Source: Agrobacterium tumefaciens (GTDB taxonomy: Bacteria > Pseudomonadota > Alphaproteobacteria > Rhizobiales > Rhizobiaceae). Taken from it: DNA of 64,000 nt. Location of the stretch: the NCBI GenBank assembly GCA_025560025.1, contig CP048485.1, positions 124,001-188,000 on the forward strand, written 5' to 3'. The translations under genes and the position numbers were made by a program. Each line of letters opens with the position of its first letter. Position 1 is the stretch's first letter. Positions 1-11,552 of the stretch are shown in pieces. Under the pieces are notes generated by a model, which saw nothing but the letters and a program-made list of their open reading frames with translations, did no database searches and was not told the origin of the DNA.

Positions 1-1727
1 CGCCGAACAATCCTGCCCACCATGCTATTGTCCTCAAGGACGTGACTAATCGCCTGATAATAGTCGTCTTTGGTCGGCTGCGTATCACCGTCCATTGGCC
101 AATGTTCTCTCCAAGTCTGGGGCAGTATGTGCTCGACCGTAAGTGTATCTGGGAGGGACTTGTCTTCCTGTTTCTTGCCCCGCTTAGCGGTTTCGATTTC
201 AGAGAGCAGCGCACGAACCCGAGCAGGGCCAAGTGTCTCATACAGCGGCTTGCTGGCAATCGCTACTTCGAACTCAGCGTCATGCGGGAATCGGCCGCTC
301 TCTGCGGTAAGGCCGAGCAGGAAGGTTGACAGTACTTCATAGGTCCAGCCGGACTTTTCAAGAGCAGCTATCACGGTCAGGAATAAGTTGTTGTAATTTT
401 TCGAACCAAGCCCGCATACCGCGCGGCGAACAATAAGGGACAGCAGCAAGTCGAGTGACTTCTGTTTGTCTTCGACGGCCATATCGCTGGCCCAGAGTCG
501 TAGGAGCAGAGGATTGATCGTCGTCACGTCCCAAGGACGCAGCCGGGCTGAAAATATGGCGAGTGGTGAGCCCGACGAGCGCTCAATGATCTCCCGGTAG
601 ATTTTCCCGTAACGCTCCAGGTCCTGAATCTCGGCCAAAACGGTTGCATAACGGGGTGTTGTGCTGTTCCGCGCCGAACGCAAGAATGCTTTGTACTCCG
701 AAAACAGCTTGGAAATAGTCACCTCACCGGCGATTTTCCCAGCAATGAAGTTAGCCAGAAAAAACTCGATACGTTGCTTTTTGTAGCGTCCCTGTTTTTC
801 CATAGCACTCCAGAATCCGTCCTCGAAGGGTTTCCAGTGCTTTTTGAACAGCGACTCGGCGTCCTCGCCACGTGCGTCGGCTCGTTGAAAGATATTGTTG
901 CGCACAAGATCGGCCGCGAGCAGAGGTTCGCCCCGGTCATTCAGGGTTTCAAAGATGACCTGTGCGTCGTCGCCCTCATCTAGAACAATCTCAACAACCT
1001 TGAATTCCTCGAGCAGCGATTGCCATATCGCGTCTAACTTCAGCTCCAGAGGGGTCTCGTCATCAGTGGTGACATCTTCCGCACCCGCCGCCTCTGGCGC
1101 CTCATCCAGATCGTCGAGAAGGTCGTCGGTTTCGACAGAGTGCTTTATACGTCCATAGAAGTAATCATAGGCCCGAAGCATGGACGGGATGGTGCTATAT
1201 TCTTTCACCTGATCACGTTTGGCGAGCCAGTGTTCGCGATAAGACTGACGCAAGGCAGCTCGGTTCTCCGAAGAGACAATATTCACGAAGAGCTGGCGGT
1301 TGGATTGCGTTGGCCAAACCTTGTATGTCTCAACCTCAGGATCTTCCATGAGCTGAGGATCGCTGTTTAACATATAGCGTTTTATATTGCCTTCGCTCGT
1401 CCCATGGCCGATATGTTGGGCATAGTGTCTGGCTGCGGCCAAAAAAAGTTGAAACGTTGTCAATCGCTGCTGGCCGTCGACTACCTGAAATGATGGTACC
1501 TGCTTTACCGATGGCCTTGCCCTGCTTTCCAGCACAACAGCGCCCATGAAGTGCGAGAATCGCCGCTCGCGACCCGCAAGCCGTTCAATCGCCTTGGTCC
1601 GTATGTCCTGCCAGAAGGGCTCCCATTGTTTCTCGCGGCTCCAGACATAGTGGCGCTGATAGATCGGCACGCAATACCGGTTCCGGTTCTGCAGCAATGT
1701 TCCGATTTCGACCGGTCCGGCTTTCAT
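1..1727 (-). CDS. DUF262/DUF1524 GmrSD-like protein, partial (C-terminus beyond left edge)
   Basis: The reverse strand is open from the ATG at 1727 to the window edge, about 575 codons, with a good ribosome binding site (AAGGGGA) just upstream. Near residue 81 it carries VDGQQRLTT, the signature of DUF262, the ParB/Srx-like nucleotide-binding domain of GmrS. Near residue 529 it has VEHILPQT, the His-containing motif of DUF1524, the HNH-like nuclease domain of GmrD. Both domains in one chain are the single-polypeptide form of GmrSD type IV restriction enzymes, which cut modified phage DNA; related proteins act in other anti-phage systems. Defence is inferred from the family. An acidic stretch lies between the domains at about residues 190-215. 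The true C-terminus is not visible. Confidence 0.85.
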   Translation of the reverse strand, partial: MKAGPVEIGTLLQNRNRYCVPIYQRHYVWSREKQWEPFWQDIRTKAIERLAGRERRFSHFMGAVVLESRARPSVKQVPSFQVVDGQQRLTTFQLFLAAARHYAQHIGHGTSEGNIKRYMLNSDPQLMEDPEVETYKVWPTQSNRQLFVNIVSSENRAALRQSYREHWLAKRDQVKEYSTIPSMLRAYDYFYGRIKHSVETDDLLDDLDEAPEAAGAEDVTTDDETPLELKLDAIWQSLLEEFKVVEIVLDEGDDAQVIFETLNDRGEPLLAADLVRNNIFQRADARGEDAESLFKKHWKPFEDGFWSAMEKQGRYKKQRIEFFLANFIAGKIAGEVTISKLFSEYKAFLRSARNSTTPRYATVLAEIQDLERYGKIYREIIERSSGSPLAIFSARLRPWDVTTINPLLLRLWASDMAVEDKQKSLDLLLSLIVRRAVCGLGSKNYNNLFLTVIAALEKSGWTYEVLSTFLLGLTAESGRFPHDAEFEVAIASKPLYETLGPARVRALLSEIETAKRGKKQEDKSLPDTLTVEHILPQTWREHWPMDGDTQPTKDDYYQAISHVLEDNSMVGRIVR

Positions 1728-4688: not shown

Positions 4689-5054
4689 TCAGTACTCATC
4701 TGCCCGCATGACGGTAAGCACCCGGCACGTAACATCATCATCCGCCGGATCGGATGATCCGAATTGCAGGTCGAGGTCGTAGTAGTCGAGCTTCCAAAAG
4801 AACACGGCGTCTTCGAGCGTGACGGCACCGAAGTCATGCTCGCCATAAGGGTCGTTGTCTGGCGAGAAATCATCGAACGTCTGCACCGCCACTATGATCG
4901 CTCGCCGTTGTTCGTCGCTGAGGTTTGTGACGCCCAGTGTCAGCAGCACTCGTCCGCCGGAGAGGCTTTTTCGAAAGGCGTCGTTTTTATCGCGGATGGC
5001 TGCGGCCCGAGCGGCCGCATCCTCGCTGATGTTCTGTTTCAAAGCGCAGCCCAT
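4689..5054 (-). CDS. DUF3768 family protein, 121 aa
   Basis: The core GGRVLLTLGVTNLSDEQR, the acidic FSPDNDPYGEHDFG block and the region VFFWKLDYYDLDLQFGSSDP are characteristic of DUF3768, a small family common on rhizobial and sphingomonad islands and plasmids. Its function is unknown. I chose the ATG at 5054 because it gives the family's usual length and avoids a long overlap with the upstream gene; the longer reading frame to 5198 would overlap it heavily. The gap to the upstream gene is five bases, so the two form an operon. Confidence 0.8.
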   Translation of the reverse strand: MGCALKQNISEDAAARAAAIRDKNDAFRKSLSGGRVLLTLGVTNLSDEQRRAIIVAVQTFDDFSPDNDPYGEHDFGAVTLEDAVFFWKLDYYDLDLQFGSSDPADDDVTCRVLTVMRADEY

Positions 5055-5059
5055 GGCGA

Positions 5060-5665
5060 TCACTTCTCGACATAGGCAGGGTGAATGAGGGCCACCTGAT
5101 CGACGCGGCGGGTGAAAGGCAGCATATCGAGATAATCGCGCCACTTGAGGCGAAGCCCTGTGTCGCCGTCGATCTTGATGACGGTGGCTTCGTACCACCC
5201 CTCGAGCGGACCGTCGGTTGCCAGTACAAGGCTGCCCACCGTCAAATGGTCCCAGCTTTCGGGCATATTCTTGGGCGGAACGGGGTAGCTGGTTTCCGGG
5301 GCGGGTTTGTCCGGCACCACACGCGGTTGCTCCAGCCGTTCGCGCTCCTCATTGGACAGGTGGGCGGCGATGGCCTGATAGAGGTCCTGCTTCACAAACG
5401 GCACGAAGGCCTTGCCGCTATCGAACAGCTTGCCCTGCGGCAACCGGCCGAGAAACGCCCTGAGTTCGTCGCCTTCCACTTTGAGTGACATCATGCCCAT
5501 CAGTTCGGCAGCCTTCTCAGCTGCGCGGGTATCGGTGGCAGGGAAGAATGAAGCGTGGGGCCTGCCGTTGTCGTCACGGCCGAGTATGATGACGGGGCAG
5601 GGCAGGCTGACGGCAGGGTTGGCGGGTAAGGCGGTGGCCGTGGATGTAGCGGTTGATACGTTCAT
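5060..5665 (-). CDS. hypothetical protein next to DUF3768, 201 aa
   Basis: The start at 5665 is supported by GGAGAGCT eight to ten bases upstream; the longer frame to 5749 has a Cys/Arg-rich N-terminus that looks untranslated. The N-terminus (to about residue 20) is Ala/Thr-rich. The C-terminal half, from about residue 140 (DHLTVGSLVLATDGPLEGWY), resembles a small beta-barrel and is the most conserved-looking part. No catalytic motif is evident. Co-transcription with a DUF3768 gene, with five bases between them, suggests accessory (island or plasmid-type) origin. The promoter region contains a repeated TTGCAACTA element. Confidence 0.7.
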   Translation of the reverse strand: MNVSTATSTATALPANPAVSLPCPVIILGRDDNGRPHASFFPATDTRAAEKAAELMGMMSLKVEGDELRAFLGRLPQGKLFDSGKAFVPFVKQDLYQAIAAHLSNEERERLEQPRVVPDKPAPETSYPVPPKNMPESWDHLTVGSLVLATDGPLEGWYEATVIKIDGDTGLRLKWRDYLDMLPFTRRVDQVALIHPAYVEK

Positions 5666-6978: not shown

Positions 6979-7362
6979 CGCAGCCGGGCTCCCGTTTCGA
7001 CTTGCGTGAAACGTAGCATGCCGGGCTCGGTTCAAACCGATAAGATTTAGCGTAAATTTTATCTAAATCTCCGCTCGGCTTGTCCAGAGAAACCGCAGGT
7101 CGGCGCTTATCCGGGTCTGCGAGTCCGCCGCCAGCTGCAAAAATCCCCTAGAGACGCCGCCGTAAATAACGGTCGGCATAACGCCAATTACATTTGCAGG
7201 CCGCAAGGTCGTGCGTGGAAGCGCCACGCGGGACTTTGCCTGCTTCATCTGGAGACACAGATGCTGCGTTCGCAAGGGCAAAGCATATGGGCCAGCTGTA
7301 CCCAAATTACCCTACAGACACACCCCCACACACAACCAAACCTAACCAAGGGAGATATGCTT
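6979..7362. other. divergent intergenic region with inverted repeat, no gene
   Basis: These 384 bases separate two divergent genes. They contain an eight-base perfect inverted repeat (7043-7070) and, just before the Rep-like gene, a C/A-rich stretch at about 7308-7345. I see no credible coding frame. The region could hold both promoters and, if the neighbouring protein is a true Rep, its origin. Confidence 0.5.
7043..7070. repeat. 8-base perfect inverted repeat (AGATTTAG / CTAAATCT)
   Basis: AGATTTAG at 7043-7050 and its exact reverse complement CTAAATCT at 7063-7070 are separated by 12 AT-rich bases. It is too AT-rich for a strong terminator and there is no U-tract. It may be an operator for either divergent gene, or a hairpin of the kind found at rolling-circle origins. 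Confidence 0.5.
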
Positions 7363-7926
7363 ATGCATACCCATACCCATACCCATACCCAGCAGCTACT
7401 CGATGCCTACACCCAGATGGTGGAAGAGAGAACAGTAGGGGGTTGGGAAACTTACATGGTCACGTTGATGTTCAACCCGTTGGCAGGCAATGAGAACGCC
7501 AAAAGGCAGCAGATGCGTCGGATTACGGAGAACCTATATGCGCTCCTGTTGACCCGCTTCGTCAGGCGTCCTCACAACACTCCGATAGTAGAGATGCCAT
7601 TCTGGCTCGCCAGTTACGACTGGCCAGTGCGGAAGCTGTCTGGCTGGACTGCGGCTGACAGCATGATCAATGATGGGATGCATATTCACATTCTCGCGAT
7701 GATACCGCCCAACGGACGTGAGGGCCGTCGTCTAACGGACGTTATCGCGAACGCACCGGCAAGCTTTCTGATCGGAAAGACTGCGCCGCTTTCCCGCATT
7801 CATGTCATGCCCATCGAAAAGACGTTGGCGCGAGCCGCTGCATACACCCTGAAATCGGTGGACAGAAAAAGAACGACCCCGGAAGACGTGATTATTCTTC
7901 CGAGGTCGAGGAGCGAGCTTAAGTAA
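7363..7926 (+). CDS. candidate HUH-type Rep/relaxase-like protein, 187 aa
   Basis: The ATG at 7363 has AAGGGAG eight bases upstream; the ATG at 7357 is too close to it. The product shows, in order, the three motifs expected of single-Tyr HUH endonucleases: YMVTLMF at residues 31-37 (motif I), MHIHILAM around H107 and H109 (the HUH metal site), and AAAYTLK with Y161 and K164 (motif III, nucleophile Tyr). Such proteins nick one strand and stay bound to the 5' end to start rolling-circle replication or transfer. The length suits the endonuclease domain alone, with no helicase. Residues 2-9 are four His-Thr pairs encoded by a hexamer repeat. The assignment is by motif pattern, not by a search. 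Confidence 0.5.
   Translation: MHTHTHTHTQQLLDAYTQMVEERTVGGWETYMVTLMFNPLAGNENAKRQQMRRITENLYALLLTRFVRRPHNTPIVEMPFWLASYDWPVRKLSGWTAADSMINDGMHIHILAMIPPNGREGRRLTDVIANAPASFLIGKTAPLSRIHVMPIEKTLARAAAYTLKSVDRKRTTPEDVIILPRSRSELK
7366..7389 (+). repeat. (CATACC)4 in-frame hexanucleotide repeat
   Basis: Four exact copies of CATACC directly follow the ATG at 7363 and encode His-Thr repeated four times. Copy-number changes would keep the frame but alter the N-terminus and the early mRNA. Confidence 0.8.
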
Positions 7927-8754: not shown

Positions 8755-9180
8755 TCATTCGCCCTCCAGTTGATCGTAGCCGGCCTCAGCTTTGCCAATT
8801 AGCGCTTTCAAGTTGAAAATGAGATGGCTAAGGTTGGACCGGTAAAGGTACCTGACGGTGTTCTTCATCTTAATTTCTGTTCTGCTAATTTCTTGCAGAA
8901 ACTCACGAATACGCTCCAGCAACTCGAGAATTTCGTCTTCTTCATAGCCGCAAGACCAGCCATATTCGGGCAACGGGCACTCATAGGACCGAGTGATGAG
9001 ATTCGAGCTCAAATCGCGAACTCGCGTCGATGATTTGCGCTTGAGTGCCTTGCGCAACTTCTCAAGCTCCTCGCAGAAAAGCGTTAGTCCGTTAACGACA
9101 ACTGGGGCTTCTTCTGATCGGTCTTGTCTGTAGGCCCATTCAGGATAGCTTTCATCGTGATCGGGGGGATCAAAAGTCAT
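8755..9180 (-). CDS. hypothetical helical protein, 141 aa
   Basis: The product starts acidic, then has long helices (LFCEELEKLRKALKRKS at about 34-50 and ILELLERIREFLQEI at about 83-97) suited to coiled-coil pairing. A CGYEED stretch with two nearby Cys lies between them. No known family is recognised. Its ATG overlaps the stop of the AlpA-like gene (9177-9180), and it ends one base before the next gene, so the three are one transcript. Confidence 0.6.
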   Translation of the reverse strand: MTFDPPDHDESYPEWAYRQDRSEEAPVVVNGLTLFCEELEKLRKALKRKSSTRVRDLSSNLITRSYECPLPEYGWSCGYEEDEILELLERIREFLQEISRTEIKMKNTVRYLYRSNLSHLIFNLKALIGKAEAGYDQLEGE

Positions 9181-9530: not shown

Positions 9531-10256
9531 CTATTTCACAGATGGTCGGAGCTTCATTAGATGATTTTTCATAGCAGACTTAACCTGTCTTGCTGTGACG
9601 TCGTTAATGACGGTGCGGCAAAGATTATGGATAAGAACACAATCTGGGTTGGTAAATTCTTCAACTATTCTGCCAGCCTTTTTGTGAGAGACTATGTCGA
9701 AAGAGCGTGTGAGGTTGCGGTCGAAAGCTTCCTCGACGCCTTCAGTAAGTTGGACGACAAGTACAGAAACAGGCAGAGTTTTTCTTCCCCGCGTTTCGGA
9801 TTTCTCCCCGCGACGCATTATCGTTCGGGCTGCCATCAGCGATGCTCCTAGATTATCTGGTAGCAGGTCAACTCCACGAAGCTCCAAGTGAGCATTAATG
9901 ATGTCGCGACGAGTTTCAGGGATGCGTCTGTAAAGATCCCGCATTTGTCCTAGTATCGACAAAGTCCTCTCCCAGCTTTCTTTTTGTTTGTCAGTCCTGT
10001 CTCTCCATGATTTAGTCGTTTTTTCAATAAAGTATATAACAGAGAAACGTATAGTTTTAATAACGTCATCTTTTGTATTTTGTAACTTATTAATCCTATC
10101 GAAATCCTTCGAGAAATGCACTGGAAATTCACTAATGGTACTTAGAGTTATTGAGGAAATATCATTCAAGGTGTTTTCGAGATTTTTATTGTTGAATGTT
10201 TCCCACTCTTCAATTGCTGCTTTGCGCGCTTTTTCATACTCTCTAAAGTAATTCAT
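9531..10256 (-). CDS. AT-rich hypothetical protein, 241 aa
   Basis: The ATG at 10256 has GAGGTGGG seven bases upstream; an in-frame GTG at 10268 is possible. The protein is polar and helical, rich in Lys, Asn and Thr in its first 120 residues, with MRRGEKSETRGRKTLPVSV near residue 150 as a basic segment, and a basic C-terminus (MKNHLMKLRP). No domain is recognised. Its base composition is much more AT-rich than the core genes to the right, which points to recent transfer. Confidence 0.6.
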   Translation of the reverse strand: MNYFREYEKARKAAIEEWETFNNKNLENTLNDISSITLSTISEFPVHFSKDFDRINKLQNTKDDVIKTIRFSVIYFIEKTTKSWRDRTDKQKESWERTLSILGQMRDLYRRIPETRRDIINAHLELRGVDLLPDNLGASLMAARTIMRRGEKSETRGRKTLPVSVLVVQLTEGVEEAFDRNLTRSFDIVSHKKAGRIVEEFTNPDCVLIHNLCRTVINDVTARQVKSAMKNHLMKLRPSVK

Positions 10257-11552
10257 ATGACTACCCACCTCTCGAACCGCATATCAAAAACTTAATCGCG
10301 CAATGCCGAATGATGCAATCGCGTTTGACTGTACAAGATGGATTATCCATATGCGACAAAAGCCAATGCATTATCCGGTATTTTTATCGGTATTTTTAAT
10401 TGACTGTTAGAAAATAAATAGGTTTTTCAAATATTTGAGCTGCTATTATGATTCCCTTCACCCGCTCCAGCGATGCCGCTATCCATGCGCCAAAAATATT
10501 CCAGGTCACAAGAGAAAGCCCAGATCACACCCTTCTGGAAATCTTGGAAAATTCAGCGGCAACCTGAAAATGTTCAGTATTAACATTCAGGACATCGTGC
10601 ATTGAAGGCACGCCGTTTAAGCGGTTTTGTTCGATAAACGAGCTGTCACAGTGTGGCGCGGTATGTGACCGTTTATAGTGTCGCTGCCGATCTGGTGTTC
10701 GTGCCGATGAGGTGAGCGTTGATCTTGTCACTCATGGCAGCAATCTCGTTGATTTTGTCGTGATAGCTTCAGGTATGGCGTTTAATCAGTATATAATTGT
10801 TGTTATTTTATGCTGCAAAAAATCAACGAGAGGATAAATTGCGAGAGAAAGACATTTTAAAAATTGTATATTTTGTAGTATTATTGATATATTTTGTGAA
10901 ATTATCGATATCTGAGTTTCGGGAGATATTATTTTACAAAAATAATGGTTGGGATTTTCGTCAAGATAGCAAAACGGATATCCGGGTATATAAAGGTGAT
11001 TCCGCTGAAGCGGAAAATGAATACTAAAATGAATCAAGAGTTGTTTTTGCGAAGCCTTTCGATATTTTAATGTTGCTATTCTTCATGATAATGTTGTTTT
11101 TTTATGGAATATAAATGAGGAATGAAAAGATATGACACTGTGCTCGCTGAACTTTACTGGCATAGACATTACCTCGACCTCCCTGCCATTCACGAAAGTA
11201 GCAAAAGTATTACCGGCCGGACATGCACGATTTTTACCGGAACCGATCTCGTGGCAGGCCAACCTCCACAAGACGAGTGCATCGGGCGCGCCTAATCTCG
11301 GTCACGCACGTCGTGCCTGAATCAATGCGGGAACGTTATTTGCGGGGTACAGCTGCCGCTTTCTCGATATGAACGCCTATATTTCAATGATTTGTACAAA
11401 CGGCCGCGCAAGCACAATAACGGGTGGCCGACGAGAAATGATGACCTCTCCATCGGTGGCAAGCCGTGCTTCAAAGAGTATATGCGATTTATCTTGACTG
11501 CGATTAAATTGCACGTAATAGTTGATGCAGTCGTAACATGAGGGGAAGTGTT
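10257..11552. other. AT-rich region without a convincing gene
   Basis: Nearly 1.3 kb before the aquaporin gene holds only short frames without good starts or recognisable products (for example a 76-codon AT-rich frame at 10797-11027). It includes a direct repeat of CGGTATTTTT (10376-10385 and 10388-10397). I read it as the edge of the accessory region plus the aquaporin promoter. A small RNA could be present but I cannot see one. Confidence 0.5.

Follow-up and report, generated by a model that had tools for sequence, protein, structure and literature searches.

The window analysed here, a 64,000-nucleotide stretch of Agrobacterium tumefaciens (contig CP048485.1, positions 124,001 to 188,000), carries a gene, rep, for a small HUH Rep-type protein, with a conserved non-coding block upstream of it and an AlpA-like gene nearby (Table 1). 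An original prediction, made from the letters alone, had pointed to an open reading frame (ORF) of 187 codons with YMVTLMF, HIH and YTLK in the order of Rep motifs I, II and III, next to a hairpin and an AlpA-like gene, and had proposed a compact rolling-circle or transposing element in a rhizobial island. The ORF and the AlpA-like gene are present, and in the translation the three motifs lie at residues 31–37, 107–109 and 161–164 in the order I-II-III with a single tyrosine. The segment 7043–7926 does belong to a mobile island, but does not make up a compact element of its own: rep forms part, as a single module, of a 21-kb island that sits at a tRNA-Gly gene, has a 24-bp direct repeat at its borders and carries a tyrosine integrase.

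Table 1: Features of the rep region and of the right-hand part of the island, in window positions.
Feature	Position	Strand	Remarks
GmrSD-type restriction protein, cargo	1..1727	-	gene extends past window start
HTH_3 regulator, 86 aa	4376..4636	+	Pfam domain
c1, DUF3768 protein	4689..5198	-	domain E 1.7e-34
c3, 229 aa	5060..5749	-	no Pfam family
8-bp inverted repeat of the original prediction	7043..7070	.	exact repeat in 2/5 close copies
Conserved non-coding block	7153..7303	+	precedes rep; candidate for an origin with nick site, or for a structured leader
rep, HUH Rep-type protein, 187 aa	7363..7926	+	motif I, HIH, Y161/K164
c2, 283 aa	7947..8798	-	convergent with rep
141-aa ORF	8755..9180	-	no family above cut-off
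AlpA-like / excisionase-type regulator, 72 aa	9177..9395	-	cluster c8
245-aa ORF	9531..10268	-	adjoins attR; no assigned function
attR	10450..10473	+	24-bp exact copy of tRNA-Gly(ccc) 3' end (20 tRNA bases + 4)

That the rep product is an HUH enzyme is well supported by its motifs and their conservation, while the predicted fold gives a mixed picture. When the protein was shuffled 200,000 times at constant composition, the ordered pattern UUTU...HUH...YxxK arose 124 times, and we compared its residues over an alignment of 34 sequences, which includes near-duplicates and one distant row that is cut off (the G820 match, E 5e-5, row L043, was retained in the count; a weaker match was seen in G753, E 0.0097). 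Motif I reads MVTL in the window protein, with threonine at position 34 in 31 of the 34 sequences and serine in three; H107 of the HIH motif is invariant and H109 present in 31, while C-terminal of it Y161 is found in all and K164 in 32 sequences, with a predicted helix at residues 155–162. Also conserved are F37 (30), N103 (34) and G105 (33). The prediction had itself named loss of the HIH motif and the tyrosine among homologues, or a match to a non-HUH fold, as results that would speak against it; both motifs turned out to be conserved, and the best structural match of the modelled protein is the HUH-type viral protein 2x3g (SIRV1 ORF119), the Rep protein of rod-shaped viruses that infect archaea. 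The ratio of non-synonymous to synonymous substitution (dN/dS, NG86) came to 0.084, 0.081 and 0.106 for three pairs of close copies; a fourth pair, the window and L032, was saturated. As foreseen, the protein could not be assigned to any family in the libraries searched: the window protein has no Pfam, PHROG or NCBIfam model at E ≤ 1 and no PADLOC model at E ≤ 0.01, and 17 members compared with Pfam and PHROGs and 23 with NCBIfam gave just single-member matches (E at least 0.12). The titles and abstract openings surveyed contained no description of this Rep family or element. At its 5' end (7363–7395) the gene has a His-Thr repeat encoded by CATACC units, whose length varies among the close copies in the window, L030 and P0002 and which is missing in L031–L033.

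The island lies at tRNA-Gly(ccc) (G000:C1:113353-113426, L038), where the partner of attR lies at G000:C1:113407, outside the window and 21,043 bp from attR. Beside the tRNA gene, at attL, there is an integrase with Arm-DNA-bind_3, Phage_int_M and Phage_integrase domains, and so the two hallmarks of a tRNA island, an integrase and direct repeats of the tRNA 3' end, are found together. The cargo comprises two C5 methyltransferases, an AAA_5 ATPase with an unmatched partner, a resolvase-like ORF recognised by eye and the GmrSD protein; the layout of the AAA_5 pair suggests a McrBC-like system. Together the methyltransferases and the AAA_5 pair (G000:C1 113.5-125.7 kb) and the GmrSD protein are cargo of restriction or defence type. 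Rep, c2, the 141-aa ORF, the AlpA-like gene and the 245-aa ORF adjoin attR. In L031, for which the stretch compared does not reach the tRNA side, the same att core lies on the right of rep at a distance of 2.9 kb. Around the integrases of nine further loci, a search for exact repeats yielded just one 15-bp match (L028). The sequence common to relatives resumes near window position 11,475-11,480 and the insertion site is variable: G402 has an intact tRNA-Gly followed by 12.7 kb of other DNA before the common flank, G399 and G414 have copies resembling the tRNA 3' end 3.3 and 4.8 kb before it, and no clean empty site was found among the relatives compared at this flank.

The non-coding block, of which the original prediction says nothing, is linked to rep. 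It is 151 bp long, ends 59 bp before the rep start codon and is strongly conserved across five copies in the genus, four of which were used to build a covariance model. Searched against 24 sources (455,851 bases), this model gave 10 matches at E ≤ 1, all of them just upstream of rep: the four training rows, L030, whose letters are identical to those of the window, and five new ones from three lineages (L045, 0.015; L046, 0.12; L024, 0.17; L004 and L005, 0.31). With filters off, 17 short loci (59 kb) gave 18 matches at E ≤ 5, among them L010 (0.15), L008 (0.29), L048 (1.4) and L049 (1.6) at the expected place, L007 (0.94) also there and doubtful by eye, and seven more elsewhere that look like chance (E 2.0–4.7). 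A scan of 39 genomes of the genus, with the best 79 candidates per genome scored, found the block once each in five genomes at E ≤ 0.01, the same five that have a full-length rep, and in distant relatives, Paracoccus plasmids among them, the block again precedes rep. The block may act as the origin at which Rep nicks. In G1034 two copies of the module lie on one contig (L045, L046), with closely similar upstream blocks and different genes on the right-hand side. The hairpin of the original prediction, with arms AGATTTAG at 7043-7050 and CTAAATCT at 7063-7070, exists as a perfect 8-bp repeat; a search for the exact repeat finds it in L030 besides the window, and L031, L032 and L033 lack it. As it is found in only two of five close copies, it was dropped as a conserved cis-element.

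Homologues of rep have a patchy distribution. Counting the own genome wherever it belongs, matches were found in 7 of 39 genomes of the genus (two with just a 37-residue remnant), 9 of 394 of the family, 4 of 297 of the order and 2 of 385 of the class (one marginal), and in further genera in 3 of 39, 2 of 3 and 1 of 6 genomes. The own genome has one full copy, its sole other match having an E value of 0.45. A protein database search returned 3, then 12 proteins, and matches in the genome contig collection were confined to Agrobacterium leguminum; the viral contig collection held no relative and the phage collection one weak partial match (E 0.7). In the plasmid collection, relatives with 31.8% identity are encoded on two Paracoccus plasmids (E 8e-24 and 5e-23), where rep is a passenger or a second system. 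The two remnant genomes (L034, L035, at about 9690-9800) hold a 90-bp piece of rep, 92% identical, near the common right flank, and the c22 gene persists in them.

From the conserved HUH motifs, the predicted fold, the att-bounded island and the linkage of block and rep, we consider it rather likely that rep encodes an HUH replication initiator with one domain and a single tyrosine, belonging to an integrative island that targets a tRNA gene, and that this small nuclease probably starts the copying of island DNA. The integrase beside attL, probably together with the AlpA-like protein, would excise the island as a circle; Rep would recognise the block upstream of its gene and nick one strand via Y161, with H107 and H109 holding a metal ion, and host enzymes could then use the free 3' end as primer for rolling-circle copying, by which the circle might be amplified or kept before re-integration or transfer. 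The broader proposal, that an undescribed family of alphaproteobacterial islands reaches from Agrobacterium to Paracoccus, with exchangeable cargo, excision by tyrosine integrase and an orphan, helicase-less HUH Rep acting on a new origin of about 150 nt, appears to us about as plausible as its opposite, if anything a little less so.

HUH Reps in integrated plasmids are known already. According to Kazlauskas 2019 (PMC6668415), the pCRESS-type Reps have the motifs UUTU, HUH and YxxK, and most of their groups occur in elements integrated site-specifically in bacterial chromosomes. The rep product shares these three motifs; it differs from the pCRESS Reps described there, which carry an SF3 helicase domain, in being of the size of a stand-alone nuclease (187 residues, no Pfam match and no C-terminal SF3 helicase domain) with no detectable sequence match. 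In the pMV158/pE194 RepB (Rep_2) cluster, as given in the same paper, motif III is YLxH, in contrast to the YxxK of our protein, which has no Pfam match. What sets this Rep family apart is the missing helicase domain, the lack of a recognised profile and its own conserved block. The work adds an HUH nuclease family missing from the libraries searched, with a candidate target site beside the gene, and opens to experiment the question of how some tRNA-borne islands in rhizobia and related bacteria are maintained once excised. In addition, small HUH proteins that recognise short targets are used as covalent DNA tags.

Several observations weigh against a replication initiator. H109 is replaced by glutamine in three of the 34 homologues, and in the structural comparison ribosomal S6 chains score level with most HUH Reps. 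Foldseek found no PDB match for the protein at E ≤ 0.001, and hhalign of the rep family with SIRV1 ORF117/119, proteins of an archaeal linear virus, aligned motif II alone (probability 5.6%). Both Paracoccus plasmids encode a separate replication protein, RepA, so that rep is dispensable for their maintenance. The integrase cluster c6 is absent from the window, the island's own integrase being 17 kb off at the opposite end. The neighbour c2 was left without explanation after family and fold searches (no family above cut-off; AlphaFold2 model, pLDDT 70.4, without PDB match at E ≤ 0.001), and RNAalifold predicted no pair in the sequence-only alignment of 11 blocks (A11). Excision as a circle, nicking at the block, rolling-circle replication and any transfer are steps that we infer.

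The main rival, possible though unlikely, is that Rep serves as relaxase for an integrative mobilizable element (IME), with the block as oriT and a helper conjugation system transferring the nicked strand. IMEs are known to combine an integrase, an AlpA-like gene and a nicking enzyme that has a conserved site beside it, and the island shares with IMEs and other tRNA islands the tyrosine integrase, the att repeats of the tRNA 3' end, the AlpA-like gene and cargo. What speaks for a Rep instead is the motif order, which is I-II-III as in Rep proteins and not III-II-I as in Mob proteins according to PMC5714925, the YxxK motif, which is of Rep type by PMC6668415, and the absence of any relaxase Pfam match for the protein or the members scanned. 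A single-strand transposase of the IS200/IS605 or REP type would likewise have an HUH Y1 fold, and the best Foldseek PDB row is indeed the ISDra2 transposase (E 0.015), but with one rep copy in the own genome, a recurring gene neighbourhood and one block per genome in 5 of 39 (best 79 candidates each) it is very improbable; the transposing element of the original prediction accordingly found no support, although no search was directed at a second end that would match. Equally remote is the idea that the product is another RRM-like protein with chance motifs, since the motif residues are invariant or nearly so in the 34 sequences and sit at the predicted HUH strand and tyrosine helix, and 2x3g, of HUH type, heads the structural comparison. 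A relic, whether domesticated or decayed, with no replication function left would fit the lack of the c22 and c6 genes of relatives in the window copy and the two genomes with just a remnant; full motifs and dN/dS of about 0.08–0.11 in three pairs make it improbable.

The block could also serve rep as a structured RNA leader or as an antisense control region instead of being a nick site, with Rep acting elsewhere, a reading that is quite unlikely and was given more weight because the evidence for a folded structure is mixed. Besides occupying the position of a 5' leader, the block favours the + strand: the P2 arms, hand-picked beside conserved anchors like all arms of this duplex test, prefer their own partner over those of others at 16 of 20,000 (9 sequences) and 24 of 20,000 (11 sequences), compared with 2,615 of 20,000 on the - strand, and the fold of 7140-7330 has z -2.9 as DNA and -2.7 as RNA on the + strand versus -1.4 as DNA on the - strand. 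A single-stranded DNA origin would favour that strand too, however, and P5 is weaker and without + preference (405 and 287 of 20,000 on +, 252 of 20,000 on -). Nine of the 25 pairs in a model-fitted alignment (8 distinct rows) vary on both sides, a number reached by 0 of 500 shuffles and compared with 1–3 in slid versions, the alignment being fitted to a structure drawn after reading the sequences. No Rfam family was found at the block at gathering cut-offs, with one chance-like match (E 3.2).

Genes near rep were clustered over 21 loci (BLASTP E ≤ 1e-4; a short contig, two remnants and the window count among the loci; names via Pfam, one representative each). Within 10 kb of rep, DUF3768 proteins such as c1 occur in 13 loci, c2 and c3 in 11 each, the integrase in 10, the window not among them, and the AlpA-like gene in 8. 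The window copy of the latter matches PHROG 2790 (E 3.5e-5) and Pfam AlpA (E 8.6e-4) with 19.6 bits versus a cut-off of 21. Integrases adjoin tRNA genes in L021, L024, L046 and L047; in L046 (5886-5962) the integrase lies on the 5' side of tRNA-Thr, in the others on the 3' side. Nine other neighbours that were scanned differ by copy, with a Tle1-like phospholipase and an MFS transporter in L030, a UvrD helicase in L032, HNH in L033, a large serine recombinase in L022, flagellin in L026, DUF927 in L025 and L028 and none in L021. The DUF927 proteins of these two distant loci (L025:10960-12888, L028:7438-9192), presumably with a replication helicase role, are encoded no more than about 2.2 kb from rep. 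In five loci the protein c19 of about 340 aa (L004:17346-18413), of which one member was scanned against Pfam with no family found, is encoded near rep, and its Cys-rich C-terminus resembles by eye an Fe-S DNA glycosylase.
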